In this document: positions 179-31,894 of the stretch, piece by piece
Position numbering within the stretch: the stretch's first letter is position 1
How the letters are laid out: the number at the start of each line of letters is the position of its first letter
Source of the DNA: Bacteriovoracaceae bacterium
GTDB taxonomy: Bacteria > Bdellovibrionota > Bacteriovoracia > Bacteriovoracales > Bacteriovoracaceae
Assembly: GCA_029865945.1 (NCBI GenBank)
Contig: JARXAH010000005.1
Span: forward strand, 1 to 34,220
Reading direction: 5' to 3'
DNA length: 34,220 bases
Position numbers and translations under genes: made by a program
The notes under the pieces: model-generated
Told to the model about the DNA's origin: nothing
The model's input: only the letters and a program-made list of their open reading frames with translations
Database searches by the model: none

Positions 179-1540
179 TCAAGTTAAGAATTTTTTCTTT
201 TTCTTAATCATGTCTAAGGCAAGTATGTACCCATCTACTTTGTCTTGAAGTTTGATGTAGCCACGCCACAACGAGATAATCCCAGGATCTCCATCTCCCT
301 TTCGCATGTTGAAGCCGCCCATCTTGGATACGAGTTTTAGCGCCAGTGATATAGTCAACGGGTGGGAATCAAACTTTGGATTTTTGTATCGAATAAGTTC
401 AATTTCGATAGGCGTAAAAGCAATCTCCGCCGGTGCCTCTGGATTTGTCGATTGAAGGTGTCTCGCCCAGTAAAGCCGCCAAGCAAGAATAGAAAAGACG
501 GCAACGTATTTTATGAGGCGATCATAACTTTTAAGTCCACAATGTTCGACTCGGCAGCAACCTTCTTTTAGTGCTTTAAAATATGTCTCAATGTGCCAGC
601 GTTGCTTATAAATTTCGATAACTTTCTTAACGGATTCCTCTGAGTCGAGGGGAAGACTCGTAAAGAGTACCCAGCGCATTGGATCTCTATTTTCGGGTTG
701 CCCAAGTTCACTCACTTCGATGACTTTTAATTTTAACTTGGGAATAACGCTTACAAGGTTATTCTTCTCGAAGCGAAGCTTTGGATTTTCAATTTCGACT
801 TCACCGTATTTAACTGAGGCTTCAACATATTGTCTCGACTTAGAGTGATAGATTTTAAATCCGTATTTTGGACTCATCTTCTTGAGATGCCAGGAGAGAT
901 AATGGTTACCCCCTTGCACAATTCGGTCGTGACTTGAGCGAACTACGTAGTCAAAACTTCGCTCTTCTAAGAACTTTAATAATTCAAATTGATCTGCTTC
1001 CCGGTCGCAAACGTGAATAAACTTTTGCCCTGGAAGGCGATTCTTTTCAACTTCTTCGATCCCTTCTTCCCATCTTTCGCTTTCCACATCCCAGGTTAAA
1101 TCTTTACCCCGACTCCAAGGCCGATAGTTCACGATCCCTTGAGGTTGTCCACCAGCTAATGCCTGGCAATAATGCCCAACAAATCCCCAAGTAGATTCGT
1201 CTCCAACCTTGCCACCAATCGTTCCGAGACCTTCAATGGATCTTTTAGTATTAAAACTAAAAAAAGTAGAGTCATGGTTCATTTGAATTAATGTTTCATT
1301 TTTTATACGTTCAAATGTTCTCTTCTTGTGGCAAGAAAAAATTTTCTCAGCGGTAACTTTATTATTTTGGAATAATCGGTAAGCGCCTTTCTTATCGTCC
1401 CAATCCTCAATCGCTCGATTAATCGTTTCATTGGAATTGCGCGCCAATAATGAACTTGTGAGAATAAATCTATCCTCCAATCTCTGGTCGCCAAAATCGA
1501 TATCTTTAAATTCTGTAATTAACCACGAATCCAAATTCAT
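179..1540 (-). CDS. IS4-family DDE transposase (IS50/Tn5-like group)
   Basis: This 453-aa protein catalyses cut-and-paste movement of its element. The N-terminal part has the Tn5-like segment DWDDKKGAYRLFQN (residues 46-59). The catalytic triad is visible: D90 in NHDST, D179 in CDREAD, and E318 inside the IS4 signature Y(2)R(3)E(6)K, here Y311, R314, E318 and K325 in YKQRWHIETYFKALK. The length matches IS4-family enzymes of 400-480 aa. The start is an ATG with only a weak GAAGA just upstream, which is usual for poorly expressed transposases. No frameshift or internal stop is seen. The subgroup is inferred from the DREAD motif and remains less certain than the family. Confidence 0.9.
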   Translation of the reverse strand: MNLDSWLITEFKDIDFGDQRLEDRFILTSSLLARNSNETINRAIEDWDDKKGAYRLFQNNKVTAEKIFSCHKKRTFERIKNETLIQMNHDSTFFSFNTKRSIEGLGTIGGKVGDESTWGFVGHYCQALAGGQPQGIVNYRPWSRGKDLTWDVESERWEEGIEEVEKNRLPGQKFIHVCDREADQFELLKFLEERSFDYVVRSSHDRIVQGGNHYLSWHLKKMSPKYGFKIYHSKSRQYVEASVKYGEVEIENPKLRFEKNNLVSVIPKLKLKVIEVSELGQPENRDPMRWVLFTSLPLDSEESVKKVIEIYKQRWHIETYFKALKEGCCRVEHCGLKSYDRLIKYVAVFSILAWRLYWARHLQSTNPEAPAEIAFTPIEIELIRYKNPKFDSHPLTISLALKLVSKMGGFNMRKGDGDPGIISLWRGYIKLQDKVDGYILALDMIKKKKKFLT

Positions 1541-5570: not shown

Positions 5571-5608
5571 CTTAATATCTATATATATTAAGATATCCGT
5601 ATATGCAA
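5564..5608. promoter_or_regulatory. Overlapping divergent promoters around a perfect palindrome inside the IS
   Basis: Only 32 bp separate the two divergent ATGs. A palindrome with 10-bp arms (5569-5578 and 5585-5594, 6-bp centre) fills most of it. Rightward, TTGACA at 5564-5569 lies in the opposing gene's first codons and TATTAA lies at 5586-5591 (16-nt spacer). Leftward, TTGCAT (complement of 5603-5608, the transposase's first two codons) is 17 nt from TATATA (5580-5585). Neither gene has a Shine-Dalgarno. Confidence 0.5.
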
Positions 5609-7228
5609 GAAAAAAATTTAAAACTTAAAGTTTCAAGAATTGGGCCAATGCCGATGATTCTCCAGATCCTCGATAAACTTGATCTCAGAAGTAAACTGCT
5701 GGTTGCATTAAAAAACGAAGATTATGTTGATGCTATTTTAATTTTGTTAAGTAATGTACTCATTGATCGAGAGGCACTTTATGCAGTAAAGGAGTGGGCG
5801 AGAACCTATGGATTGCGCCTTTCTTCTGGGACGGAAGTTAATGATGATCGAATCGGACGTGCATTGGATCGTCTTTTTGAAGCGGATCGCTCTACGCTTC
5901 AAACTCAAGTTACATTGTCGTTGATAAAAAAATTTAATTTAAAAATGGATCAAATTCACAGCGATACGACGAGTGTAAGTGTTTCAGGGAATTACGAAAA
6001 TCAAAATAAAAAAGCAATCCAACTTAAGCGAGGACATAGTAAAGATCATCGCCCAGATCTAAAACAGTTAATTTATAATTTATGTGTTACCAATGACGGT
6101 GCTGTTCCAGTCCATTTTAAATCTTATGATGGCAATCAGTCAGATGACTCAATTCAGCTAGAAACTTGGAATAATCTTCGGTCACTTTTGCAGAGGCCTG
6201 ATTTTATTTATGTAGGAGACAGCAAGCTTTGCGTAGAGAGGACTTTGCGAAAGATCGATGCTGAGCACGGACTTTTTGTAACAGTGGTTCCGCGTACACG
6301 TAGTGAAGTGAAGGAATTTTCAAAAGAACTCAGCAACGGAGATGTTCGCTGGCAAAGAATTTTACGAAAAAAATCGCGCACCAGTGGAGAATTTGATACT
6401 TTTGACGTTGCGCTTGGCCACCATCAATTGCGAGAGGGGTTTTCAGTTTTTTGGTATAGATCAAGTCAAAAGAAAAAGCGCGATGCATTTGAGCGAAAAG
6501 ATCGAATAGCGCGCGCGACGGAGCGGCTAGAGAACCTAAATTTAAAAAGACTTCGTGGCCCAAAAACAGAGGCGGCGATCAAGAAAAAAATTGATGCCAT
6601 CATATCTAGATTTGCTGTTCAGGCATGGATAACTGTAGATACTAAAATAGATATAACAGAAAAATTCAAAGCACTAACGCGCGGTAAACCCACGAAGGAA
6701 ACGAAATATCGTTGCATTAAAATAAAAACACCACGACTCCACATTAAAAAAAACGCCGAGGCGATTGCGCATTCACAAATGATGGATGGACTATTTCCTC
6801 TTGCAACAAACACAAAGAAAAATTCACTTGATGTGCTGCAAATTTACAAATATCAACCAAAGATAGAAAAGAGGCACGCATTTTTAAAATCAACTCTAAA
6901 TGTAGCACCTGTTTGGCTCAAAAAAAATACACGAGTTGAAGCTCTGATGTTTGTTGAGTATCTTGCACAAATGGTTGCGGCAATAATAGAGAGGAATCTG
7001 AGATTGGCGATGAAAACGGCAGGTATCAAAAATATCCATTCGCTACCAGAAGGGCGCTCTTCTGAGACACCAACGTTTGAACAACTGCATAGGATTTTTG
7101 AAAATCGTCAGCGACAGGAGCTTTATGAAAATAATGTTGCGATTAAATTATTTTCAGAGCCATTGTCTTTGGTACAGTCGCAAATTTTATATTTTTTGGA
7201 GGTCGCGGAATCGGAATATTTGGCATAA
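5603..7228 (+). CDS. IS1634-family DDE transposase
   Basis: This 541-aa protein moves the surrounding element. It opens with a DUF4277-like N-terminal segment (RIGPMPMILQILDKLDL) and then shows the IS1634 core: D121 in HSDTTS, followed by GHSKDHRPDLKQ near residues 144-155, D206 in YVGDSKL, and the likely catalytic E422 in KIEKRHAFLKS. Size and motif order fit the family (about 500-600 aa). No internal stop or frameshift is present, so it is probably functional. The start is ATG without a Shine-Dalgarno sequence; translation is probably leaderless or very weak, which would keep transposition low. Confidence 0.92.
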   Translation: MQEKNLKLKVSRIGPMPMILQILDKLDLRSKLLVALKNEDYVDAILILLSNVLIDREALYAVKEWARTYGLRLSSGTEVNDDRIGRALDRLFEADRSTLQTQVTLSLIKKFNLKMDQIHSDTTSVSVSGNYENQNKKAIQLKRGHSKDHRPDLKQLIYNLCVTNDGAVPVHFKSYDGNQSDDSIQLETWNNLRSLLQRPDFIYVGDSKLCVERTLRKIDAEHGLFVTVVPRTRSEVKEFSKELSNGDVRWQRILRKKSRTSGEFDTFDVALGHHQLREGFSVFWYRSSQKKKRDAFERKDRIARATERLENLNLKRLRGPKTEAAIKKKIDAIISRFAVQAWITVDTKIDITEKFKALTRGKPTKETKYRCIKIKTPRLHIKKNAEAIAHSQMMDGLFPLATNTKKNSLDVLQIYKYQPKIEKRHAFLKSTLNVAPVWLKKNTRVEALMFVEYLAQMVAAIIERNLRLAMKTAGIKNIHSLPEGRSSETPTFEQLHRIFENRQRQELYENNVAIKLFSEPLSLVQSQILYFLEVAESEYLA

Positions 7229-10440: not shown

Positions 10441-10791
10441 TTATCGACCGCTGACCTTTTTTAATACGGCCCTCTCCACTAACCTAAGCCGCTCTTCTAG
10501 ATCATGAAGCTTACCTATCCTATCTTCACCTTGCGTATGATGAATTAATAATTGACGGGTGTATGGCTGGTAACCAATCCCCTCATTTTTGGCCATGGCC
10601 TTAAGCTTCGCGACAACAGTTGCAGGAAGTCGAATAGAAATCATTTGTAGTGCCATCGCATCATCTAATGCCTCTTCATCTTCTTGAGTTGCCACAGTAG
10701 AACGAGAACCACGCTTCCCGGTATCCCATTCATAGGACTCAGTCAAAAGCTCCTGCTCTCTATTTCTTTTTTTTTCGCTTGATTTTTTCAT
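10441..10791 (-). CDS. CopG/BrnA-type antitoxin
   Basis: The 116-aa protein has a charged N-terminus and a ribbon-helix-helix DNA-binding segment, ISIRLPATVVAKLKAMAKNE at about residues 52-71, followed by GIGYQPYTRQLLIHH. This is the pattern of CopG-type antitoxins such as BrnA. It would bind the toxin and repress the operon. The gene starts inside the toxin gene (32-bp overlap). It has a strong ribosome site, AGGTGA at 10798-10803, 6 nt before the ATG, much better than that of the toxin. The toxin-first order is typical of brnTA. A charged helix (LEERLRLVERAVLKK) ends the protein. Confidence 0.75.
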   Translation of the reverse strand: MKKSSEKKRNREQELLTESYEWDTGKRGSRSTVATQEDEEALDDAMALQMISIRLPATVVAKLKAMAKNEGIGYQPYTRQLLIHHTQGEDRIGKLHDLEERLRLVERAVLKKVSGR

Positions 10792-11062
10792 ATAAACTCA
10801 CCTCGTCATCATTTGGTTCGTATGCCGTGATAACAACCGGCGCTTTTTCTTCAGGATCAATAAAAAAAACTATTTTTAGTCTGCGTCCTTTGTTCGTCTT
10901 AGAAATAAACCAAAAACGAATTTCCATGCCTTGGTTATTCACCCTTACTTCTTTTGCTAAAGGACCTATGCGGTTAAGAAAAACTTGCTCAACTTCCAAA
11001 GACGTAACACCATGCTTTATTTTTAGTTTATCGAAAATGAGAGGGTAGATAATAATTCGCAC
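10760..11062 (-). CDS. BrnT-like toxin of a type II toxin-antitoxin pair
   Basis: The 100-aa protein shows the BrnT-like order: FDKLKIKHGVTSLEVEQVF at the N-terminus, a central RFWFISKTNKGRRLKIVFF strand pair, and VITAYEPNDDEVSLYEK near the C-terminus. BrnT toxins have a RelE-like fold and act as ribonucleases; that activity is inferred here. The typical BrnT arginine in the final motif is replaced by EPN, so a related family is possible. The start is GTG at 11062 with no clear Shine-Dalgarno. The best promoter (11074-11102) would start transcription only about 4 nt upstream, so translation may be leaderless. It overlaps the antitoxin gene. Confidence 0.65.
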   Translation of the reverse strand: MRIIIYPLIFDKLKIKHGVTSLEVEQVFLNRIGPLAKEVRVNNQGMEIRFWFISKTNKGRRLKIVFFIDPEEKAPVVITAYEPNDDEVSLYEKIKRKKKK

Positions 11063-11241: not shown

Positions 11242-12411
11242 CTAGCAGTTCACAACTAAAATTTCCAATTTTTGTGAATCATCAAGTTTATTTATGCTAT
11301 TTTGAATTTCAAATTCCGTGGCATCGATGGAAATTTGAGTGATGGAGCTCTCAAAACTTCTAAAGAATTGAGTCATTAAAATCTCAGACACAACTTGGCC
11401 ACCAGTGGCGGCCGCTATTTTATTGGCAAAGATGACCAATTTAATGGGAATGTATTTTACGAGCGCTTCATTTAGGCCCAAAATTCCGGCCGCAAAAAAA
11501 GAAAAATCTCCCGTTACTGACCACGCTTTTTTCGCTCCCGCTAAATAGGCCCCCGCGGCCATGCCGGGCGATCCACCCATATAAGATGTGGCATCAATGC
11601 ATTGGAAGGGAGGGAAACCAAATAAAGTTGAAGTGCCAGCATCCCCTGAAACAAAATCTTTTTTTATGAGAGAGAATATTTTGAAGAAGGGTATATAGCG
11701 GTCGTAAGTTATTTTTAGTTTAGGGGGAAGAATACTTCCCACATCAGTGATGTTGGGTAGTGAAATATTTTCAGTGCCTTGGTGTTTCAATTTTGATTCT
11801 AAAACTTCGCGCTGAAATTTTGTTACAATGGGAGCGGCCAAGTGATGGAAGGGGAGTCTCTCAAGCTTCTCTGTGTGGGGCGCTAAGGTATTTAATGTGT
11901 AGGGAAAATGATTTTTGATTTGATCGCAATCCACGTAAATGATAACAGGGAGCTTCATTTTTTCAGAAAGTTGGACAGCGTTTTGGATTTCTTCAAAGGC
12001 ATTACTTGTGAGTTCTACGATCGGTGCTTCGAGTGCAGCAAGCACGGGCCTAATGTTTAAAATATTATCTGAACTCTTTCCGTAAACATCATCAAAAACA
12101 AAAATCAGATGCGCTGCTGTGGTGCCGATACTCAAAGTACTGGTCAACGCATTAGCACACTTTAATAATCCATGGGCCTTAATGAGCAGTGCAGACCTCG
12201 CGCCGTAAAGGGCAGCTCCCGTGGTCATGCTAAAGGCCGCTTCTTCATTGAAACAAACAAACTTATGTTCGATTAAATTTTTACTTTGATTGAGTTCTGC
12301 AAAAACTTCTGTCCCTCCCCAGCCTGGAACATTGAGCGCTACTTTGAAATCGCTACATTCGAGGGCGTCAGAAATTAATTCTGTAAGAGTCGCCGTTTTA
12401 GAAGTTTTCAT
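11242..12411 (-). CDS. Short IorA-like thiamine-diphosphate-dependent enzyme
   Basis: The 389-aa protein resembles the alpha subunit of indolepyruvate:ferredoxin oxidoreductase. The N-terminal pyrimidine-binding part has NVPGWGGTEVF, the conserved FNEEAAF glutamate and DDVYGKSSDN, matching the IorA DD...SSQN region. The C-terminal diphosphate-binding part has GD at 301-302 and the metal-site Asn at 330, ending in NKIAAATGGQ, close to IorA's NrtTAMTGHQ. IorA proteins are about 600 aa and end in a ferredoxin domain; this one lacks that domain entirely, and no IorB is nearby. It may therefore be a 2-oxoacid decarboxylase-type enzyme instead. It is the last gene of the cluster, 5 nt after gshA, without its own ribosome site, so it is probably co-translated. 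Confidence 0.7.
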   Translation of the reverse strand: MKTSKTATLTELISDALECSDFKVALNVPGWGGTEVFAELNQSKNLIEHKFVCFNEEAAFSMTTGAALYGARSALLIKAHGLLKCANALTSTLSIGTTAAHLIFVFDDVYGKSSDNILNIRPVLAALEAPIVELTSNAFEEIQNAVQLSEKMKLPVIIYVDCDQIKNHFPYTLNTLAPHTEKLERLPFHHLAAPIVTKFQREVLESKLKHQGTENISLPNITDVGSILPPKLKITYDRYIPFFKIFSLIKKDFVSGDAGTSTLFGFPPFQCIDATSYMGGSPGMAAGAYLAGAKKAWSVTGDFSFFAAGILGLNEALVKYIPIKLVIFANKIAAATGGQVVSEILMTQFFRSFESSITQISIDATEFEIQNSINKLDDSQKLEILVVNC

Positions 12412-12416
12412 AAAAT

Positions 12417-13661
12417 TTATTTTACACTCATGGTTTCAAGGGCGGTGGCAGCGCTAGAGAGTCTTGCCAGTAAACTATAGGTAGCAAGTTTAGCTTGTTT
12501 TTGATTGCCTTGTTGAATTTCACATACGCAAAATTTTTCGTAAGTCATTCCTTTAGAATTTAAATTGCTCATGGCATCTTTTTGAGAATTAGTACGCATA
12601 AAGCCGCCCGCTGTTTTTCCACCCACTAGGTAGAGCGTAATTTCGGCCGGACTTCCCTCGTGAGTGACGATGGTCTCCACTCCTTCTTGTAGAAGAACTT
12701 GATTGAATTTTAAATTATTTTTTCCCACGTCCATTTTATTTCTAATCTTGCGATTCATATTTAAAATTTCATCAGCAGAATCGATCACACTAATGCCCAT
12801 TCCATAAGTTCCTTGGCTCGCCTTCATAAAAATTTTGGCGTTGGGATGAGTAATTTCTTTTTGTAAGTCCTCAAACTGCTTCGCCAAATTTTCTAATCCT
12901 TCTTTGGCCAAAAAATCTACGTGATCAATTGCGCGAAATTTCGCTTGAATCAAATCGGGATCAAGGGAGAAGTGGTGGGCAAATTCATTGGCCACTTTCT
13001 GATAAAGTTGAAAGTGTTGGTTTTTTTGTCTTTGGTACCAACCCATTTTAGAGGTCGGAAAAATTTTTGATGTTATTTTATTCCAATCAACGGGAAGAGG
13101 TTTCGATTGATCATGATTGAGAATAACCGTGTGAAAGGAAGTGGCCGGGTTTTCACGCAAGCAAAAATATCCTTCGTTGTTGATGGCGCTCGAATAAATT
13201 TTAACCGGATGCCCACTAAAGGAAGTCAACTCGATAAAATCTTTTCCTCCTAAAAATTCTTGATCAGGAGAAATGATGGTCACTTCTTTCCCGGCCATAT
13301 TAAAAATTTTAATCAAGGCGGCCAAATGGTCGAGATAGTAGAGATTGCTGGTGTGAGACTCAGGGATGAGAGCAAGGGAATTTTCCTCAGACTTTTGATC
13401 TTCCAAAAATTTTTTCACGAGGTTAGATGCATGCTGACTATCTTTTTGGCACAGATTATTAAAGCCGGCCGGGTATTGATTGTTATCCACTGGCGCCAAT
13501 TTATGATTAGCTTCCCTAATATCAACGCTAGTATAGAAGGGAGTATTGGACAGAGTAAAATATTTATCGATAAAGGAATTACATTCATTCCAATTGTTGA
13601 TGACAAATTCAAAGAGCGATTCTTTGGTATGAATTTTCGGCGTCTCAGAATTGTTGGTCAT
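12417..13661 (-). CDS. gshA: Glutamate-cysteine ligase, T. ferrooxidans type (PF08886 / TIGR02049)
   Basis: The 414-aa protein catalyses ATP-dependent joining of glutamate and cysteine to gamma-glutamylcysteine, the first step of glutathione synthesis. Recognition rests on the family hallmark VDIREANHKLAPVDNNQYP (about residues 46-64) followed by AGFNNL, and on FMKASQGTYGMGI, an ATP-grasp-like nucleotide segment. The length is close to the family norm. The gene begins inside the end of the upstream ArsA-like gene (17-bp overlap), which implies translational coupling. No gshB is visible in the window, so whether the product goes on to glutathione or is used by its operon partners is unknown. 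Confidence 0.85.
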   Translation of the reverse strand: MTNNSETPKIHTKESLFEFVINNWNECNSFIDKYFTLSNTPFYTSVDIREANHKLAPVDNNQYPAGFNNLCQKDSQHASNLVKKFLEDQKSEENSLALIPESHTSNLYYLDHLAALIKIFNMAGKEVTIISPDQEFLGGKDFIELTSFSGHPVKIYSSAINNEGYFCLRENPATSFHTVILNHDQSKPLPVDWNKITSKIFPTSKMGWYQRQKNQHFQLYQKVANEFAHHFSLDPDLIQAKFRAIDHVDFLAKEGLENLAKQFEDLQKEITHPNAKIFMKASQGTYGMGISVIDSADEILNMNRKIRNKMDVGKNNLKFNQVLLQEGVETIVTHEGSPAEITLYLVGGKTAGGFMRTNSQKDAMSNLNSKGMTYEKFCVCEIQQGNQKQAKLATYSLLARLSSAATALETMSVK

Positions 13662-14724
13662 AGGTACCCCAGTATGGTTGGAAAGATTGTAAGTTGGGTG
13701 TGGATCCCGTAAATGGCAATAGCGGGAAAGGAAATATTTTCAAAAATTCTAATTTCATTTTCTCTAAAAGTTGATCTTCTCTTAAAATCATCGTCTCTAG
13801 GTAATTTTTCCATTCCTTATTTTTTTGCGAAAGAAGATCTTGATTCCAAAATGGATTGCTTAAATCTTTTTCAATCATTAACTTGAAAGATTGATTTAAT
13901 AAGAGGGTAGGTGTGATTCCTGAGCGATCGATTATTTCCTCTTTTAAACTAATCAAGTAAGTCTCGTTGGAGCGATCTGGAGTGGCGACTAAAAAATACT
14001 GGGTGATTTCAGGGTTTTTTAGTGACTCGATAAGTTGCAAGGAACTTTTAAAGGATTCCTTTAAGTCATAAACCGCCATGATGGATTCTATGAAATCTTG
14101 GACGAAATGACTTCCGGTTAATTTTTCTAGGTAGGTCATAAGCTTTTGAAACGAGAGGTCAATGAATTTAGTGAAAAGATTGGATTTGTACTTTTGTAAA
14201 ATAACGCGCTCGAAAATTTTGATTAATTTTTCTTCAAAGAAATTTTGAATCCTGGGAACACTCAAGAAAAAATCCAGAAAGTGTCCACCAGGAGCCGTAT
14301 CAATAATGATACGATCGTAAGTTTTTAAACTTAAAAAATGATGAACACACAAAAAACTTAAGATTTCATTGAGTCCCCCCAGACGGTGAGACAAGATATT
14401 TAAGAGACGCAACTTATCTAAATTAGGATTTTTTGAATTTTTCTTAAGCAGCATATTGATCGCCCAATGCCCATCCATGAGAAAGAGATCCATTTCTTTA
14501 TCACCGTAGCTTGCGTGAGTAATGCCATCATCCTTTTGAGGTTGTTGATCGGAGAGAGAAAAAAATTGCTTAAGACGAAGGGAAGGGTCGATGGACATGA
14601 TTAAGATTTTTTGATCATTCTCATTTATTTTGGTCAGAGTTTGATGGTAGGCATAAGAGGCCGCGAGGCTAGACTTTCCCACTCCACCTGGCCCGAAAAA
14701 AAAAGAGAGCTTGGTATTTTTCAT
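13645..14724 (-). CDS. ArsA/GET3-like ATPase, first of the pair by size (359 aa)
   Basis: This is a cytoplasmic deviant-Walker P-loop ATPase. The Walker A is GPGGVGKSS (residues 11-19), in which the signature lysine normally found after the first glycine (GKGGVGK) is proline. IDPSLRLKQFF corresponds to the ArsA DPA region. IIIDTAPGGHFLDF matches the family DTAPxGH switch. ArsA-family enzymes handle arsenite or tail-anchored membrane proteins, but no arsenic gene is adjacent. The partner gene 14748-15515 is a second ArsA-like protein. Such pairs are known in actinobacteria and myxobacteria and probably form heterodimers. The gene overlaps gshA by 17 bp. Its substrate is unknown. Confidence 0.8.
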   Translation of the reverse strand: MKNTKLSFFFGPGGVGKSSLAASYAYHQTLTKINENDQKILIMSIDPSLRLKQFFSLSDQQPQKDDGITHASYGDKEMDLFLMDGHWAINMLLKKNSKNPNLDKLRLLNILSHRLGGLNEILSFLCVHHFLSLKTYDRIIIDTAPGGHFLDFFLSVPRIQNFFEEKLIKIFERVILQKYKSNLFTKFIDLSFQKLMTYLEKLTGSHFVQDFIESIMAVYDLKESFKSSLQLIESLKNPEITQYFLVATPDRSNETYLISLKEEIIDRSGITPTLLLNQSFKLMIEKDLSNPFWNQDLLSQKNKEWKNYLETMILREDQLLEKMKLEFLKIFPFPLLPFTGSTPNLQSFQPYWGTYDQQF

Positions 14725-14747
14725 GATTTCTTTTACAAACTGTTTAA

Positions 14748-15515
14748 CTACAAAGAGAAAAGTGGTGCCAAAAAGGGGCCAACATCTCTTATTTTTTGAT
14801 TATAATCGCTACTCCTGGATAGCGGAATAGAAATGAAGTAAGAGCTAGGGCCTTTGGATAAATTAATTTGCGTTTCTTCTTGGAATTTAGCGTGAAAATA
14901 TTCTGAACTTTGTAGTATTTCCTCAGAAATTTGCGCCGCCATCAAGGATTGATTTAATATATTTACTATTTCCATTTCATTATAATTTTCTTTAATGATG
15001 AGATTGGTTTCTAGAGACTCTTGTTGGGATAAAAGAGTAGGCAATTGAACTTGAAGCATCGAAAATTTATTTTTATCCTCCATGGTTTCTTTCATCATCA
15101 TGAGATCTTGAAAAAGAGGCCCAGATAAAAACATTTTTGCAAAACTAGTCGGTGCTTGAATAATGGAGAGAAAATGTCCACTTGAGGGGCCATCAATAAT
15201 GACTGAAGTTTCCGGGTTTTTTTTATAGTCATAAATAATTTTGCCAAGCATCACGAGGTAGCTAAGCCCAGGCAGCATATTGATGAGGGATTTGAAAAAG
15301 GGCGTTTTATAAATCCACTGAGCAATCAAATTTGAGTGAAGCTTAAGGCCAATATATTCAATCGTCGATTTTTCATAATCAGGATGTGTTTCACTCGCAG
15401 GCCACAAGATTTTTTTAACTTTGAGATTTCTTGAGTGAAAGGCGAGTTCAAGAGCATCGGCCAAAAAACTTTTACCCACTCCACCCTTTCCGGAAATAAA
15501 ATAGATTTTTCCCAC
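14748..15515 (-). CDS. Short ArsA-like ATPase, partner of the 13645 gene (255 aa)
   Basis: The N-terminal Walker A, SGKGGVGKSF (residues 8-17), keeps the signature lysine K10, unlike its partner. IIDGPSSGHFLSI stands for the DTAPxGH switch. The protein lacks the ArsA DPA motif, having WPASETHPDYEK instead, and is shorter than ArsA. Both proteins have methionine- and phenylalanine-rich central segments (here FAKMFLSGPLFQDLMMMKE) that could form a hydrophobic groove, as in GET3, which binds membrane helices; that is inference. The start is GTG at 15515 with no good ribosome site, and it follows the outer-membrane protein gene by 13 bp. It is 23 bp upstream of the larger ATPase. Confidence 0.75.
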   Translation of the reverse strand: MGKIYFISGKGGVGKSFLADALELAFHSRNLKVKKILWPASETHPDYEKSTIEYIGLKLHSNLIAQWIYKTPFFKSLINMLPGLSYLVMLGKIIYDYKKNPETSVIIDGPSSGHFLSIIQAPTSFAKMFLSGPLFQDLMMMKETMEDKNKFSMLQVQLPTLLSQQESLETNLIIKENYNEMEIVNILNQSLMAAQISEEILQSSEYFHAKFQEETQINLSKGPSSYFISIPLSRSSDYNQKIRDVGPFLAPLFSL

Positions 15516-15528
15516 GAAGAATAGTTCG

Positions 15529-16242
15529 CTAAAAGTTATAGAACAAGGCCATCATGAGTTTGAAATAGGATCCAGCAAGACTTGGCTGAGAGTTTTGTTT
15601 CGACCTAAAGGGGTAGTGATAAATCCCTTGAAGACCAAAACTAAATTTTTTGTTCAAATTGAGCTCCATCCCCGCGCCAAGATGTACCCCTAAAACAATT
15701 TTATTTTCACTCTCAGTGAGCGCTCCATTAATGATACGAGTCGCCTTAGGACGATAGAAGCCCAATCCTCCTAGGAGGAAAGGAGAGAAATTATCAAAAT
15801 CAAAATATTTTGCTTTTATCCCTGTGGTAAGCGCCATCAACTCCATTTTCTCAAGATCTTCATTATCTTTTTGGGTTGAAGTGTGAAAGTTAGTGAGTAA
15901 GTCAAAAGAGTGAGAAGCTTTATAGCGATAAAATAAATCGGCCGTTAAATCGTCACTTCCGTGATGAGAGTAGTCGCCTAATAAAAATGTTTGTCCAATA
16001 CCAATTCCTATGCCGTGATTTGAGCTTAAACCTGAGCTAGACGACGAGTTGGATGAGGAATTATTTTTCTTAAAGACCTTCCCCACCTCTTCACCAGAAC
16101 TTTCATTTCCCGATTCTTCACTAGTATCAGGGGCCTTTGCGAAGTCATCACGGGAAAAAGCTGGGGGCGCCTTAAGAAGTAGGAGGGAAAGTGAACAACT
16201 AAAAAGTATCGAAAAAAAAGGAGATTGTGATTTTGTCTTCAT
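15529..16242 (-). CDS. Outer-membrane beta-barrel protein
   Basis: The 237-aa protein has a signal peptide (SPFFSILFSCSLSLLLLKAP, cleavage near AFS), a low-complexity Ser/Asn-rich linker (about residues 60-75), and then alternating amphipathic strands (IGIGIGQTFLLGDYSHH, ADLFYRYKASHSFDLLTNF, FSPFLLGGLGFYRP, VLGVHLGAGMELNL). It ends in an aromatic strand finishing with Phe (LMMALFYNF). This is typical of small 8-strand outer-membrane barrels of the OmpA/OmpW type. It is transcribed with the ArsA-like pair, gshA and the IorA-like gene, which may mean the cytoplasmic genes serve an envelope process. No ribosome site is obvious. Confidence 0.75.
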   Translation of the reverse strand: MKTKSQSPFFSILFSCSLSLLLLKAPPAFSRDDFAKAPDTSEESGNESSGEEVGKVFKKNNSSSNSSSSSGLSSNHGIGIGIGQTFLLGDYSHHGSDDLTADLFYRYKASHSFDLLTNFHTSTQKDNEDLEKMELMALTTGIKAKYFDFDNFSPFLLGGLGFYRPKATRIINGALTESENKIVLGVHLGAGMELNLNKKFSFGLQGIYHYPFRSKQNSQPSLAGSYFKLMMALFYNF

Positions 16243-16277
16243 GACAAAATCATAAGTGAAACGAAGGGTTCTTACAA

Positions 16278-16739
16278 TTATAAATTTGAAGGACTACTTT
16301 CCAATGGAGCATGGACACTGATGTTGTTATGAGGATTATTGTTGCTTAGCATGACATCCGATGGGGATTCTACCAATTGAGCTTCCTCAGCAGGTTTTAA
16401 TTTTGGAACGACAACCTCCGGCATTTTTTCTTCCATCTCGTGATGGCCAATACTGAGTGCTTTTTCCAAAGATTTCACATATCCAGTCACGCGACCAGTA
16501 GGGGAAACAATAATTCGTCTCAGTAATTCTGTATTTTCCGGGCCAACAAATTTTTTCTCTAAATCAAAAAGCATTTGCAGTTGCGTGTGATAGGTGATGT
16601 CGCGATTAGTATTATTTTCCAGAACCTTGACGTGATCACCTTGTCTAAACATTTCTGCAACGTCCTCTAACGTTACGTAGGTACTTTGAACCGTATCGTA
16701 GAGTTTTCGATTTAAATACCTTTTAATAATTCTTTTCAT
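16278..16739 (-). CDS. phaR: PhaR-type polyhydroxyalkanoate synthesis regulator
   Basis: The first 65 residues match the PhaR/PHB_acc N-terminal DNA-binding domain: IKRYLNRKLYDTVQSTYVTL followed by EDVAEMFRQGDHVKVLE and an RDITYHTQLQMLF stretch. The remainder is variable and rich in Pro, Glu and Asn. In proteobacteria PhaR represses phasin genes and binds PHA granules. Here no phaC or phasin gene is visible. The ATG at 16739 is preferred over the GTG at 16748 because GAGGAG lies 8 nt before it. The downstream gene is the outer-membrane protein after 35 bp, so the regulator may head the cluster or control it. It diverges from the TPR lipoprotein gene. Confidence 0.85.
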   Translation of the reverse strand: MKRIIKRYLNRKLYDTVQSTYVTLEDVAEMFRQGDHVKVLENNTNRDITYHTQLQMLFDLEKKFVGPENTELLRRIIVSPTGRVTGYVKSLEKALSIGHHEMEEKMPEVVVPKLKPAEEAQLVESPSDVMLSNNNPHNNISVHAPLESSPSNL

Positions 16740-16984
16740 CACACCCACTCCTCAACCAACGACAATAAATAAACTATAAATAAACTAAAAATAATCAATC
16801 CTTCTTCCGACGAGGCCGTTTTTAGCAGCGATTTGCGATCGGCGTCAACGGAATCCTAACGCGATGGAAAAAATTACCTAAAATGCTCACCTAATTTGAA
16901 AAAAATACAGCCATTCATTTATTTGCTCTCTCTTGCCGATAGAGCTGTGCTGAAACTTTTTAGAGAGTTCCAAGTAGGATTTAA

Positions 16985-25453: not shown

Positions 25454-26485
25454 ATGCCAACAACTGACAAAGGTAAACCTTTACCAACGATTCAGAACCT
25501 AGATCTAATTAATTTAGATTTTCTCAAACAGCATCGATTTCTGTTGGGCAATGTATTTATAAAATCTAAATTCAGTGACAAACGTTTTCATCTTTTACGA
25601 TACGGCGAGTATCTTTCAGATGAGCAAATTGAAGATTATCAAAAACGAAACATAAATGAATTTGAATATGGGCCAGTGGTCACCAAGGAATACTATTTAC
25701 CTTGGTTTAATTTACTTAATAAAATTAAAGTGAGAGAAAACAGTCCAGCAAAGACGAGTGAATGGATTAAGGAAATGCAAAGTTTTTATGTCTCTCAATA
25801 CTTAAAAAAAGATCTCAATGAAATAGAAATTCTAGGAATGATTGAAGGACATTTAAGAATCTTTGGTCAAGGTAGAGGAAAATCGGTAATTGAAAATTTT
25901 TTGAAAAGTAATCTCCTGCTTTTTAAGCGTCAGGCCTTTCTAGCGAGTAGCTGTATCATTCCTTTGTTTATTATGGGGCACGATGATTTTCTATTTTTAG
26001 AAGATGTATTTATTGCCATTTTACTTTGTGATAACTCGCTCTGGAATTTTTATACCCTGCAAAATGATCGATCGTTGAGTTATTATCACGACCATCCCCT
26101 GAGCATGGAAAAAAAGGAATTAATAAAACAAAATTATGATTCCGTAAATTTTGACATGCTACAAGTTTCAAAGAATTCTCTCTATCAGTTTGAGTACGAA
26201 TCGGTGGCAGAATTGATCGTTCGGCATCGCGAATGGTGTCTCAGTGAAAAAGGAACATTTAATCCCTCTTTAATTAATGACTGGATCGGTGTGATTTTCT
26301 TTTTTGACTTAGTTCTGCCTTACCACTATGAGGCCCAATTTCAGTTTATGGATAAAATAAAAAAATTAAATCATGAGCAACAATTCATTTTAAAAAGCTT
26401 ACATAAAGTTGTGTATTTTTTAAATGATCAGCTTGGAATAGATATATTCTCCCATTTTGAAACAAAAATGAGAGTGAGTGCATGA
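25454..26485 (+). CDS. Cytoplasmic protein of unknown function, 343 aa
   Basis: No family is recognised. The protein has no signal peptide, is largely helical, and carries a central hydrophobic segment (FLASSCIIPLFIMGHDDFLF followed by LEDVFIAILLCDNSLW, about residues 178-215) and later YYHDHPLSM. The arrangement of His-Asp pairs there faintly recalls a degenerate HD domain; I would not assign it. A perfect GGAGGTGA (25437-25444) sits 9 nt before the ATG, so it should be well translated. Its stop overlaps the start of the 1199-aa gene by 4 bp (ATGA), which implies co-translation and probably interaction with that coiled-coil protein. It lies 49 bp after the transporter operon. Confidence 0.75.
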   Translation: MPTTDKGKPLPTIQNLDLINLDFLKQHRFLLGNVFIKSKFSDKRFHLLRYGEYLSDEQIEDYQKRNINEFEYGPVVTKEYYLPWFNLLNKIKVRENSPAKTSEWIKEMQSFYVSQYLKKDLNEIEILGMIEGHLRIFGQGRGKSVIENFLKSNLLLFKRQAFLASSCIIPLFIMGHDDFLFLEDVFIAILLCDNSLWNFYTLQNDRSLSYYHDHPLSMEKKELIKQNYDSVNFDMLQVSKNSLYQFEYESVAELIVRHREWCLSEKGTFNPSLINDWIGVIFFFDLVLPYHYEAQFQFMDKIKKLNHEQQFILKSLHKVVYFLNDQLGIDIFSHFETKMRVSA

Positions 26486-29400
26486 GTAAGAAAAATCTTT
26501 TATGTTTGATACCAGGAGAGGAAGTTAAGGGTTTTGTCCTCGCGTTTTTTGTAAAATTAGAATTTGAAGTAGAATTTTTAGATAAAGATCTTTCGTCAGT
26601 TCCAGATGAAAAATTTCTAAAATATTATGGCCTTATCATTAATGAAAGTATTGATATATTATCTTTGCAGGGCACAATCGGGAAATACCCTCTCATTAAA
26701 TTAATAAGTTTTGGAAATTATTCTGATCTAGTTACTTTTGTATCTTTCAATGGAAGGTATATAGTTGATCCTTTGTGGTCGAAATATGAATGGAGCTTTC
26801 CTTACTGGAAAAAATTACTTCACTCTGAATCCTCTATTCATCTTCAAGAATATCTAGGGAACGGGGTAAAAAGCATAAAAAATAAGAAATTATTTAATTT
26901 CTTTAAAGTGGGCATTCAGGTTGATGAAATTATCGTTTCTTTGGCCAATTTAAAAATTAATTTTGTCGCGGTTAGATCTTTCATAGATCATCTCTTTCTT
27001 TTTGCAGAAATTGAAAAAAATAAAAACTTAGGCAATCTTCCCATCGAATTAGAATATAAAGCGACTGAGAATGGATTTTTTTTACTTGCCAATTTTTTTT
27101 CTAAACCCATTGATCAAGAACATTTTATACAATATTTCGAAGCGAAAAAATCGGTTTCTCCAGAAGATGGATTGCTGCTTCTTTGCGCTAAATTGTGTGA
27201 TTCTTTTAGTGTTACGCACGATCAAGAAAAGAAGTTAACTACTGTCACTGCACTTTGGGTGCAGAAATTAAAAAATCAAGTAATTGAAACGCCATCTTTA
27301 GTCTTTGAAATTTTTAAATCGCAAAAGACAGAAAAGCGGCCGATTGTTTTGTCTGGAGAGCAAAACTCTCAACAAGTGGATTGGGCAAAAAATCATTCTG
27401 TAGAGGAATTAGAGGGCCTCCAAGAAGAATTAAGTCATCGGACAATTCCTACAACTAAATCTTTGGAAGTTGGCCGAACTGACCTAGATGATACTAATTT
27501 AAAAGAAATATTTTTTAATGACCGTGAACAAATGAGGCAAATAACTGAGTTTGCTCTCATGAATTTTGATTTAGAAAAACCTGGCGTTTCAAAAACGCAA
27601 TTGGATTCAAATTTTTTATTAAAGGTAATTAAAAATTATCCTTACTTTGATGAAGTACCTAAAGACATGAATGAAATCGATTACGCTCGGCTAGCTCAGA
27701 TGATTATCAAAGAGGCGTGGACTGAAATTGGTGAGGAAGAAATCTTAAATGAAGTAGGCGATGAACAGATTGGAGATGTTCATGGAGAAGAAGATGTAGA
27801 GGCAGAAGATGTTGTGGATGATGAAGCTGTCGAACCACTTCAGGATGAAAAACTAGAGGATGAAGAAGGTATTGAAGCCAATCTTGATATCCCAGAAGAA
27901 CAAACGAGCGACGAAAGCAATGAAAAGTTGGATAAAGATTCTGAAGTCGCGAAAGTTGAAGGAAAAGCTGAGGACGAGACAGACGAGCATGTAGCTGGAA
28001 AATCTGAAAAAGATAAAGAAGCGGTAAAAAAAATCAAGGGTAAGGGAGACGAGTTAGGAGAAACTAAGACACAAATTGAGGGGGCTAAAGAGGAGCTTAC
28101 TAAAACCTTAAGTTTAAATAAATCTAAGAAATCAAATGATGAAGATAGTGGAATGGCCAAATTTCTTGCATCCATGACCGGTGATGTCGTGGATTCTCAA
28201 AATATGGTAACGATGCTTAAAACAGCTACGAAACAATCAGTCAGTAAGAGCGATTTAAGTAAATTTATTGCAACTCAAAAATTACCACAAGATGAAAATG
28301 ATGAGCTTCTCAGTGTTCTATTGACATTTAAAGTAACAGAAATTGATCAAAAAGAATTCGAAAATGCAACTAAGGATTTGAAGTTAAAAAATAACTTTAA
28401 AAATAATGTAAATGAATTTTTCAAATTAAATTCTACTCCGATCATTGATGTTGATAAAATGGCGAAGGGCCTTAAGCAAAATCAAGTTCCTCTAGAAAAA
28501 ATAAATTTAGTTAAAGAATACTTAGTAAAGAAAAATTCAGAGACAAAAGAAAGTTCAAATTTAAGTTTAAATTCCAGTTCAACTAGCGTTAAAAGTCAGC
28601 GTCAAGGGCAGGATGGTTCAAAAAATGATATTAAAAGGATAAAAGGAAAGGAAAGCGAGGAAGTAGATAATCTAAAGCAATTGGTTGAAAGTTTGAAAGA
28701 AGAAAATTTAGAAAAAGATGAAGTAAACTCAGAATTAATTGCCCAGAAGATTAATAAAGAATTAAATATTGATCAGATCAAAAATACCAAAATTGAATTA
28801 ACTAGAGATGAAGATGATGATCATTTCATTAATAAAATAAGTGATAAAATTTCGAATGGAGGAAGCTTAGAAAAAAGTGATGCTAAAGATATCATGAAAA
28901 TTTTTGCGAAGGAGCGAGAATTTCAAGATCGTGCAAGAGAGTTGGAGAAGCAGCATCGATTGGCATTGATGGCGTTTGATAAAAAAGATGCACTTTATAA
29001 AAACGAACTTGATGATTATAAAAGAAAAGTGAAGCAAAAAGATCTACTATTAAAGCAGGCCCATGAGGGTATACAAGCATCCCAAGCACAAAAAGAAAAA
29101 TCGGTAAATTTACTTGAAAGAACGATACGAGACCTAAAACAACAAACCTCCCAAAATTCAATAAGTAAGCTTGAAAGTAAGATTCAATTATTAGATCGAG
29201 ATAAAAAATCTATGCTCAAGACTATTGAGATGTATAAAGAAAAATTAGCGGAAATAAATAGGTTAAACTTGCAAAATAGTGATAAACAAAATTTAGATCA
29301 CGTTAACTATAAAGAAATAGCAACTAGATCTGAGGCAACTAAAAAACGATTAGAAGTTAAGTCAGAGCAACTTGAGGCAGAAAAGACGGAAATGAAGAAG

Positions 29401-30081
29401 GATTTATTCCATAAAGATGATCTCATTAGAAAATTAAACGCACAATCTGAGATCCTAAATAAACGCGTTCTCATGGCCGAACTTAAAATGAAGGAAGCTT
29501 TAGATACGGCAAAAGAGGCAAGTGCAATGGCCTTGAAAGATAAAGTGGTCGTAAAAGATGCAGGACTATCAAAATTACAAGAACAACTAACGAGAACGAG
29601 GGAAGAAGCCAGAAATGCAGAAACGGAATTAAGAAAAGAGATGGCGAGGAAAGAAGAGTCCATTAACTTGATTAAGAAAAATTTATTAAATGAAACGAAC
29701 AAGGTCAAAATTCTAGAGGATAAAATCAAAGAATTAGATGATAAAGCGGCGAATAGTTCCAAAAATGGAGTCGGAGCAGAGGGAAAAAATAGCACTGGGA
29801 AACCAGAATCTAGTGGAACCATGCTCAAAATGGCAGAAGAAGCAAAGAAAAAACTCATGAAAGATTTGCAAGATCAATCTTTGAAATTAGCTGAAAGTAA
29901 AAAAGAAGCAGACAAAATGAAACGTACCGCTGCGGAGCTCCAGGCCAAATTGTCAGCGGCAGAAGCGGAGCTTGGAAAATTAAAAAAAGCTAGCGGAGTT
30001 TCACCTGTAAAAGATAATAAAGAAGTTAAAGAGATTAAAGAAAATAAAGACATTCCGCCAGTCGCTAAAAAAGCAGGCTAG
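26482..30081 (+). CDS. Giant coiled-coil protein with a receiver-like N-terminus, 1199 aa
   Basis: Residues 1-110 show a beta-alpha rhythm (KNLLCLIPGEEVKGFVLAFF, VEFLD, YYGLIINESIDIL, IKLISFGN) that resembles a degenerate response-regulator receiver without the phosphorylated Asp. Residues about 413-510 are strongly acidic and low in complexity. About 800-1090 and 1113-1170 are long charged heptad-type coiled coils, ending in a Lys/Glu/Pro tail. A pseudo-receiver joined to a coiled coil recalls the myxobacterial motility/polarity proteins FrzS and AglZ, but that is only analogy of layout. No signal peptide is present, so it is cytoplasmic. It is translationally coupled to the 343-aa protein and followed after 7 bp by a secreted protease. 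Confidence 0.8.
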   Translation: MSKKNLLCLIPGEEVKGFVLAFFVKLEFEVEFLDKDLSSVPDEKFLKYYGLIINESIDILSLQGTIGKYPLIKLISFGNYSDLVTFVSFNGRYIVDPLWSKYEWSFPYWKKLLHSESSIHLQEYLGNGVKSIKNKKLFNFFKVGIQVDEIIVSLANLKINFVAVRSFIDHLFLFAEIEKNKNLGNLPIELEYKATENGFFLLANFFSKPIDQEHFIQYFEAKKSVSPEDGLLLLCAKLCDSFSVTHDQEKKLTTVTALWVQKLKNQVIETPSLVFEIFKSQKTEKRPIVLSGEQNSQQVDWAKNHSVEELEGLQEELSHRTIPTTKSLEVGRTDLDDTNLKEIFFNDREQMRQITEFALMNFDLEKPGVSKTQLDSNFLLKVIKNYPYFDEVPKDMNEIDYARLAQMIIKEAWTEIGEEEILNEVGDEQIGDVHGEEDVEAEDVVDDEAVEPLQDEKLEDEEGIEANLDIPEEQTSDESNEKLDKDSEVAKVEGKAEDETDEHVAGKSEKDKEAVKKIKGKGDELGETKTQIEGAKEELTKTLSLNKSKKSNDEDSGMAKFLASMTGDVVDSQNMVTMLKTATKQSVSKSDLSKFIATQKLPQDENDELLSVLLTFKVTEIDQKEFENATKDLKLKNNFKNNVNEFFKLNSTPIIDVDKMAKGLKQNQVPLEKINLVKEYLVKKNSETKESSNLSLNSSSTSVKSQRQGQDGSKNDIKRIKGKESEEVDNLKQLVESLKEENLEKDEVNSELIAQKINKELNIDQIKNTKIELTRDEDDDHFINKISDKISNGGSLEKSDAKDIMKIFAKEREFQDRARELEKQHRLALMAFDKKDALYKNELDDYKRKVKQKDLLLKQAHEGIQASQAQKEKSVNLLERTIRDLKQQTSQNSISKLESKIQLLDRDKKSMLKTIEMYKEKLAEINRLNLQNSDKQNLDHVNYKEIATRSEATKKRLEVKSEQLEAEKTEMKKDLFHKDDLIRKLNAQSEILNKRVLMAELKMKEALDTAKEASAMALKDKVVVKDAGLSKLQEQLTRTREEARNAETELRKEMARKEESINLIKKNLLNETNKVKILEDKIKELDDKAANSSKNGVGAEGKNSTGKPESSGTMLKMAEEAKKKLMKDLQDQSLKLAESKKEADKMKRTAAELQAKLSAAEAELGKLKKASGVSPVKDNKEVKEIKENKDIPPVAKKAG

Positions 30082-30088
30082 CAGATTC

Positions 30089-31894
30089 ATGACTAAGAAT
30101 TTTAGATTGAATTATTTTTTTTTAGAATTTTCCTTTTTCATTTTTATTTCTGGTTGTAATCATCAATTGGGCCCAATCATTGAAAAAAGAGAAATCGCAG
30201 GAAATTCTCAAAATCTACCTTCACCGGTTGCCACTTTAGTTCCAACCAATACCCCAAGTGTCCCCTCTGGGAGCGGTGATCACGGACAAACAGAAGATTA
30301 CCAGGGAGTGACGGCACCTTTTCAAGATTGCGCTTCAGCGAAGTTAGATTGGAATTTTGAGGGAGAATATTTTTGCAATCAGTGGCATATTTTTAATTTT
30401 GGTCAACAAGTCTCCCAAGTACCAAGTTCAACTCCCTTTGGTGATCCAGGTGATCCTACGATCGACTTAACTTTATATGAAACATGGAAAAATTATCACG
30501 GTGAGAATATGAAAGTGAGTATTGTCGATTCTGGAACTTTTTCTCATCCCGATCTGAATCCTAATTTTATAAGTGGTGTAGATGCATGCACAGGGTCTAA
30601 TAATATTATTCCGATACCTGCTCCTGGTAGTCTAGGACGTGACCATGGAATTCAAGTGGCAGGCCTCATTGTGGCAAATGGTAAAGTAAGTGGTGTTGCT
30701 AGATTAGCAAAATATTATATGAATAATTTAGTTTCTTGTGGAATTGATGATCGTAGGTCCGATCCTTCTGCCTCAATGAAAATTGCCCAATCTCTTTATC
30801 AACCAGTGGCCAATACGCATAACTCAAGTTGGGGAAATCCCAGCTGTGATACTGGTTTCGGTTTTGGAATCGCTGAGCAACAAATGGATCTTTTAAATGC
30901 CGCAGAGAATGGTGCCATGAACCAGGATATTTTTTATACGAAATCTGCGGGGAATGAAAATAATTGTTTGGCGATTGCCAATGCAGATCCGCTTAATTCC
31001 AGTCCTTATTTAAATATTATCGCGGCCCTTGATAATGAAGGAGCTGTAACGTCGTACTCCAGTCGCGGGCCGAATCTCTCTTTTGCTTCTTTGGCCGGAT
31101 ATGGTTATCCCAATCAACCTGAACCAGGTGTTGTTACTACCATTGTAAACTTAACAAACGAAGAACCTGGATATACGTCGAGAATGAATGGTACTTCGTC
31201 CGCTGCACCAGTTCACAATGGCGCTTCAATTTTGATACGTCAGGCACTACCCGGATTCAAGTGGTATGAAATCACAGCTTTGGAAATTATGAATGCAAGG
31301 TCTAGTAATCGGGGATCTGATCAAAATTTCACCACCAATTCCCCCATCAGTTCTTCTCCCTATATTAATAAAGTTAAGAATGCTAAGAATTATTTTCATA
31401 GTTGGCACACCGGTTTTGGATTAGTGAATGTGGATAAGTCAATCCATGTGGGGAAGACAACTTTTCAAAGGCTACCCGCTTTGAAAAAATTTTCTGCGTC
31501 CTACAATAATAATGCTTGGGCGACAAGTAGTAGCACGGCCGATCAAGCGATTGCAAGTGGACAATGCCAGGAAAAAATACTCACCATTAATAAAGAAAAT
31601 TTTCAAATTTTTACATTGATCATGTCCATGAAAGTAACGATAGCTTCCATTAAAAATATTATCGCCACGTTAAAATCACCTAGTGGAACCGAGGTTCAAG
31701 TTTTTAGACAAAACAATTTACCAGGAAGCAATTTAACTCTAGGCCAATATCATAAAGTGATGGGGTTTTTTGCGGAACAGTCTAAGGGTGATTGGCGGCT
31801 AAAAGTTTGTGCAACATCGTCAGCAGTATTTGGGCCCTTTAAAATGGATATTATTGGATTTGATGGATCTCCCATACCAGAAAATAATTTATGA
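30089..31894 (+). CDS. Subtilisin-like (S8) serine protease lipoprotein with P domain
   Basis: The 601-aa protein has a lipoprotein signal peptide ending in ISGC (Cys23), a Pro/Ser/Thr-rich linker, the kexin-type entry motif NQWHIFNFGQ, and a full S8 catalytic set: Asp147 in VDSG, His186 in DHGIQVAG, oxyanion Asn289 in AGNEN and Ser370 in GTSSAAP. Residues about 480-598 form a P/Homo B-like domain (LKSPSGTEVQVFRQNN, KGDWRLKVCATSS). No I9-type propeptide can be seen between the lipid anchor and the catalytic domain, unusual for this group. The next gene, overlapping by 4 bp, may supply it. It acts at the cell envelope or outside. The substrate is unknown. Confidence 0.88.
   Translation: MTKNFRLNYFFLEFSFFIFISGCNHQLGPIIEKREIAGNSQNLPSPVATLVPTNTPSVPSGSGDHGQTEDYQGVTAPFQDCASAKLDWNFEGEYFCNQWHIFNFGQQVSQVPSSTPFGDPGDPTIDLTLYETWKNYHGENMKVSIVDSGTFSHPDLNPNFISGVDACTGSNNIIPIPAPGSLGRDHGIQVAGLIVANGKVSGVARLAKYYMNNLVSCGIDDRRSDPSASMKIAQSLYQPVANTHNSSWGNPSCDTGFGFGIAEQQMDLLNAAENGAMNQDIFYTKSAGNENNCLAIANADPLNSSPYLNIIAALDNEGAVTSYSSRGPNLSFASLAGYGYPNQPEPGVVTTIVNLTNEEPGYTSRMNGTSSAAPVHNGASILIRQALPGFKWYEITALEIMNARSSNRGSDQNFTTNSPISSSPYINKVKNAKNYFHSWHTGFGLVNVDKSIHVGKTTFQRLPALKKFSASYNNNAWATSSSTADQAIASGQCQEKILTINKENFQIFTLIMSMKVTIASIKNIIATLKSPSGTEVQVFRQNNLPGSNLTLGQYHKVMGFFAEQSKGDWRLKVCATSSAVFGPFKMDIIGFDGSPIPENNL

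Follow-up and report, generated by a model that had tools for sequence, protein, structure and literature searches.

Does a compact run of six genes in one genome mark a single pathway? The question is raised by a block on the minus strand of contig JARXAH010000005.1, from the 3.08 Mb draft genome of a Bacteriovoracaceae bacterium (phylum Bdellovibrionota; assembly GCA_029865945.1). The whole stretch analyzed, positions 1 to 34,220 of that contig, is called the window here, and open reading frame (ORF) calling places the block at 11242-16748 within it. Profile searches (Pfam, NCBIfam) assign its members, in order, to a PhaR-like regulator, an outer-membrane barrel, two ATPase subunits of the Get3/ArsA fold (ArsA1 and ArsA2), a glutamate-cysteine ligase (GshA) and an enzyme dependent on thiamine diphosphate (ThDP), with gaps of 35, 13, 23, -17 and 5 bp. 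An initial annotation had recorded six minus-strand genes no more than 35 bp apart with one 17-bp overlap, and the ORFs and gaps derived again here agree with it. Such spacing makes one transcript across the block plausible, and the six genes of this compact block are probably co-transcribed; terminator-like sites in the region are not above chance (3 found, 5.3 expected). The block is probably a composite, made up of a conserved unit of regulator, barrel and ATPase pair, an ordinary GshA, and a late-arriving ThDP enzyme, and not one pathway.

The regulator, barrel and ATPase genes in related genomes

We looked for GshA, ArsA2 and the ThDP enzyme in 59 genomes, retrieved the matching regions, and called and clustered their ORFs; the gene-order counts below are uncorrected for kinship among the genomes compared. 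All 32 Bacteriovoracaceae genomes with the ATPase pair carry barrel, ArsA1 and ArsA2 on the same strand and in this order, and a PhaR gene precedes the barrel in all of them but one, where the ORF caller put a longer opposing ORF. This recurrence, with that of GshA behind ArsA2 described below, shows that the arrangement is not due to chance. Because PhaR, barrel, ArsA1 and ArsA2 are kept together across genera, they are likely to be parts linked in function. The initial annotation had treated the entire compact cluster as a unit, which holds for these four genes and not for the ThDP gene, which the conserved block does not include. Homologs scattered singly in related genomes, which that annotation had named as the sign that would undo its cluster, are what we see for the ThDP enzyme and not for the remaining genes.

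The divergent TPR-lipoprotein-OppA genes upstream of the block are likewise conserved in the family, which marks the region as a stable part of the chromosome that, in the window genome, has undergone rearrangement at its downstream end. Two transposase-type genes further down the window, one Tn5-type (179-1540, minus strand) and one bearing DUF4277 (5603-7228, plus strand), fit such a rearranged end, and suggest that the window's left third is mobile or has been rearranged. A search for repeats marking an insertion border downstream of the block found nothing convincing.

The PhaR-like gene (16278-16748, minus strand) is called from a GTG start, with an in-frame ATG alternative at 16739 that is the start previously annotated. 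Its product scores 76 bits to PF07879 (PHB_acc_N), above the cut-off, and 68.2 to TIGR01848, under the cut-off of 109.45. Control of polyhydroxyalkanoate (PHA) metabolism can be set aside for it, since PHA synthase (PhaC_N) is absent from the window genome (and was not found in 57 of the 59 genomes searched), leaving no synthase to regulate. The gene is probably a local regulator.

The barrel gene (15529-16242, minus strand; 29.7 bits to PF13505, OMP_b-brl) encodes a protein whose AlphaFold model, based on 30 sequences, has a mean pLDDT of 82.6 and consists of a helix at residues 9-23, then eight main strands between 76 and 236; the protein also has a Ser-rich linker. The best Foldseek matches of the model are OmpA, NspA, Ail/OmpX and OmpW. 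On the strength of this model, we predict with high confidence an exported outer-membrane barrel with eight strands, similar in size class to OmpA, NspA, OmpX and OmpW, which would be too small to serve as a secretion channel.

The proposed ATP site of the ArsA1/ArsA2 pair

ArsA1 (14748-15515, minus strand, GTG start) matches the Pfam ArsA_ATPase family at 23 bits (cut-off 24.3), and ArsA2 (13645-14724, minus strand) does so at 73 bits. Motifs were surveyed in 50 ArsA1 and 52 ArsA2 sequences from Bdellovibrionota, with counts taken over the readable subsets. The ArsA1 P-loop is GKGGxGK[ST], with the intersubunit (signature) lysine at position 2, in 48 of 48 sequences, and the Asp-Pro (DP) motif of switch I occurs in none of 50. 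The ArsA2 P-loop is G[T/S/P/A/G]GGVGK[ST], with a lysine at position 2 in 0 of 51 sequences; its switch I, DP[AS]xRL, and its DT[PA]P motif are each present in 51 of 51. The window copies read GKGGVGKS at the N-terminus of ArsA1 and GPGGVGKS in ArsA2.

The first lysine of the deviant Walker A motif of Get3 acts in the ATP site of the partner subunit, a property of the family that includes Get3 and Get3d (PMC10248533). Given that role, a lysine confined to ArsA1 and a switch I confined to ArsA2 are most parsimoniously explained by one composite ATP site per heterodimer. From these motifs we infer that ArsA1 and ArsA2 form an obligate heterodimer in which ArsA2 is the catalytic chain. ArsA1 lies directly upstream of ArsA2 in 48 of 52 cases, 24 of them with a 4-bp overlap, a pairing that bears indirectly on a physical heterodimer.

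The same split is present in the mycobacterial pair of PDB entry 6bs3, where GKGGTGKS is found in chain A (Rv3679), and GAGGVGKTT together with TIDPAKRL in chain B (Rv3680), so ArsA1/ArsA2 is an already known kind of pair. Rv3679 (6bs3 chain A) is the best PDB match of ArsA1, and 6bs3 chain B is among the Get3/ArsA chains matched by ArsA2. The motif pattern of BagA and BagB (lysine in the A chain; none in the B chain, which has a switch I of the TIDP[AS]xRL type) is found here in full, and by that pattern the two proteins would behave as a BagAB-like pair, ArsA1 being BagA-like and ArsA2 BagB-like, without equivalog status. Mycobacterial BagA/BagB (Rv3679/Rv3680; PDB 6bs3-6bs5) are likewise encoded by two adjacent genes of the Get3/ArsA fold, but sequence identity is low, and the neighbors here are an outer-membrane barrel, PhaR and thiol genes.

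Two better-known relatives fit less well. The arsenite pump ArsA shares the Pfam ArsA_ATPase domain and the ATPase fold, whereas the proteins here are two separate, unequal chains without a conserved Cys triad. No alignment column of ArsA1 reaches 25% Cys, and ArsA2 has two such columns, the higher at 32 of 52. An arsenic role was rejected because there is no conserved Cys triad for As(III) and no ars genes were seen in the window. Get3/TRC40 resembles ArsA2 in P-loop, switch I and switch II; in the pair studied here, by contrast, the signature lysine is split off from the catalytic chain. Nor is the CXXC zinc motif of Get3/TRC40 a family feature here (CxxC in 3 of 50 ArsA1 and 1 of 52 ArsA2 sequences).

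In the mechanism we propose, ATP would be bound and hydrolyzed by ArsA2 through the P-loop and switches of that chain, and ArsA1 would supply the intersubunit lysine in trans. By analogy with Get3, ATP would close the two chains around a hydrophobic client, and hydrolysis would free that client at the membrane. The adjacent barrel, encoded with the pair and the PhaR-like regulator in what appears to be a conserved unit of the family, may be one such client. (Outside the family, the gene behind ArsA1-ArsA2 often encodes an EI24/CysZ-like membrane protein or a small membrane protein, or else the gene ahead of the pair encodes a lipase-like hydrolase; the products of these genes are further candidate partners of the ATPase pair.)

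GshA and the thiamine-diphosphate enzyme

GshA (12417-13661, minus strand, overlapping ArsA2 by 17 bp) is a single-copy gene in the window genome. It matches PF08886 over its full length at 362.2 bits (gathering threshold 25) and narrowly misses TIGR02049 (278.8 against 293.9). It thus resembles the Acidithiobacillus-type GshA (PF08886, TIGR02049) in its full-length match, and in that relatives' copies adjoin gshB and the genes for cystathionine beta-synthase (CBS) and cystathionine gamma-lyase/synthase (CGL), and differs from it in a score slightly below the equivalog cut-off. Of 37 family genomes, 18 carry GshA, which lies immediately behind ArsA2 in all 16 that hold both genes; in the other two loci it stands behind the barrel, and the ATPases are missing there. 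The next gene in these 18 loci, identified from NCBIfam and Pfam, encodes CBS in 15 and a gamma-lyase/synthase in two. The exception is the window genome, the only one in which the lineage-specific ThDP gene fills the slot where relatives carry CBS. A gamma-lyase/synthase also follows GshA at four loci of family f12, and gshB comes directly after GshA at two loci outside Bacteriovoracaceae. Two families without PF08886 (f3 and f9) carry GCS2, and the f9 copy shares a contig with a GshB match and lies close to it, which argues that the ligase was replaced there and not lost.

With such neighbors, the textbook partner of GshA is cysteine and glutathione synthesis, where the gene belongs, CBS and CGL providing the cysteine supply. 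The initial annotation had found no glutathione-synthesis partner nearby, a statement that is correct for the window and does not extend to relatives, where CBS/CGL genes directly follow GshA, or gshB does so in some other families. The window genome has a CBS and CGL pair of its own on contig 20, away from GshA on contig 69, and a divergent glutathione synthetase (GshB-like) on contig 40, with both GSH-S domains above the Pfam cut-offs and below the NCBIfam cut-off; the latter gene rules out that a glutathione partner is wholly missing from the genome. Together with the neighbors in relatives, these genes make synthesis of glutathione or gamma-glutamylcysteine the ordinary explanation, in which GshA would carry out the first step of glutathione synthesis, with the transsulfuration and GshB-like genes located elsewhere in the genome.

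The ThDP enzyme (11242-12411, minus strand; TPP_enzyme_C 33.6 bits) has an AlphaFold model with a pLDDT of 78 and low-confidence stretches at 184-221 and 259-277. The model shows PYR and PP domains and aligns (VIA-align Z 27-30) to acetohydroxyacid synthases and ThDP-dependent 2-oxoacid decarboxylases, whose chains exceed this one by about 150 residues, the extra residues being a middle domain that this enzyme lacks. EE, GDAGTS, GDFSF and ATGGQ motifs are invariant in seven aligned homologs, and the fold match with invariant E56/E57, GDFSF and N330 places the enzyme in the ThDP-dependent decarboxylase superfamily. The alpha subunit of indolepyruvate:ferredoxin oxidoreductase (IorA) is like it in having a C-terminal ThDP domain, and some motifs of the two presumably resemble each other, but the enzyme has 389 residues against 595 in IorA, is without the ferredoxin domain, and scores 92.6 bits to IOR_alpha where the equivalog cut-off is 650.9; with no Fe-S domain found, identity as a ferredoxin oxidoreductase was rejected. 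Phosphonopyruvate and sulfopyruvate decarboxylases share its PYR-PP layout and a match to the alpha-chain profile (and the alpha subunit of PDB 9iz3), but the enzyme is a single chain and falls far below the sulfopyruvate decarboxylase alpha equivalog cut-off (29.8 against 147.95 bits). It belongs to a single-chain, two-domain ThDP family, marked by GDAGTS and ATGGQ, that is spread over several bacterial phyla and Methanothrix.

Within the phylum, the enzyme occurs in 8 of 369 genomes, and 58 close relatives have no ortholog, only weak matches of IorA-type and other ThDP proteins. Elsewhere it is scattered in Myxococcota, Ignavibacteriota, Bacteroidota, Thermodesulfobacteriota, Armatimonadota and Methanothrix, and in a tree the window copy groups with those of Bdellovibrionota and Myxococcota. 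Its neighbors gave no clue to function, as no common partner emerged across 30 loci of other genomes from several phyla, where small local sets exist (e.g. a cupin in Melioribacteraceae); it adjoins GshA in the window genome only. No relatives were found in viral contigs or plasmids, and the GC content of the gene, at 0.414, does not stand out among the values of the window genes and gives no signal of foreign origin. It would appear that the ThDP enzyme arrived late and outside the conserved unit, and its chemistry is probably that of a non-oxidative 2-oxoacid decarboxylase.

Directly downstream of the ThDP gene lies a BrnT/BrnA-like toxin-antitoxin pair (10441-11062, minus strand) that scores below the Pfam and NCBIfam cut-offs, and in another genome of the same family the ThDP gene is preceded by two small ORFs resembling such a pair. 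Far from the block, the window also holds an ORF of 1199 amino acids without a Pfam match (26482-30081, plus strand), followed by a subtilase (30089-31894).

One pathway or several

Several observations weigh against the composite reading. The ThDP gene starts 5 bp past GshA and is therefore probably co-transcribed with it, and it could have been recruited into the block. The seven other genomes of the phylum with the ThDP enzyme all hold GshA (a weak association over few lineages). Both ATPase subunits miss the NCBIfam equivalog cut-offs for BagB and BagA widely (54.9 against 521 for NF053621, 22.6 against 400 for NF053622). A neighborhood kept in six families could also partly reflect inheritance.

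In an alternative reading, the ATPase pair, GshA and transsulfuration would work together as a single redox or carbonyl-stress unit, for example to protect membrane proteins or insert them during thiol stress. By hand count, ArsA2 and GshA are 0-2 genes apart in 22 of the 29 genomes with both, across those six families, and bagAB of M. tuberculosis has been tied to protection against the toxicity of glycerol metabolism and nitric oxide (PMC10597346). We nevertheless regard such a unit as unlikely: in roughly half of the family the ATPase pair occurs with no PF08886 GshA, and CBS is retained in 11 of 17 such loci, which makes the linkage of ATPases to thiol genes modular, and conserved Cys is wanting in ArsA1 and limited in ArsA2 to the one majority column.

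It is rather improbable that the ThDP enzyme was recruited to thiol metabolism to decarboxylate a sulfur-bearing 2-oxoacid (3-sulfopyruvate or 3-mercaptopyruvate). The slot it occupies is that of cysteine-forming enzymes, its N-terminal domain resembles the alpha chains of sulfopyruvate and phosphonopyruvate decarboxylases, and all eight genomes of the phylum that have it also have GshA; against this stand the low sulfopyruvate decarboxylase score and the unrelated neighbors outside the window genome. Equally doubtful is the broader proposal that Bdellovibrionota couple a split-site pair of the BagAB type to synthesis of low-molecular-weight thiols and to a dedicated barrel, for thiol- or redox-linked delivery of hydrophobic envelope clients in predatory bacteria. 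The original suggestion that all six genes make one pathway of envelope modification or delivery, in which the barrel would be the outer-membrane partner and the group used would be gamma-glutamyl or derived from an oxoacid, can draw on the tight spacing and overlap in the window genome and on the joint conservation of barrel and ATPase pair, but is very improbable, as the proposed group delivery has no support past gene proximity, GshA is gone from the block in about half of the family with the remainder kept, stands at the block position without ATPases in two loci, and keeps company with cysteine and glutathione genes (CBS/CGL in 17 of 18 family loci), and the rare ThDP gene is part of the block in none of the relatives and keeps no constant neighbors elsewhere.

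On the composite reading, compact spacing of genes in a single genome says little about a shared pathway, and the ThDP gene would be a passenger. The recurring thiol-gene neighbors recall the stress phenotype reported for bagAB. Bacterial relatives of Get3 and ArsA are widespread. An exceptionless division of the ATP site over two genes leads to a biochemical prediction, that there should be one site with its lysine supplied in trans, covering Bdellovibrionota and mycobacteria alike, and the barrel that recurs beside the pair in one family may be a first candidate client.

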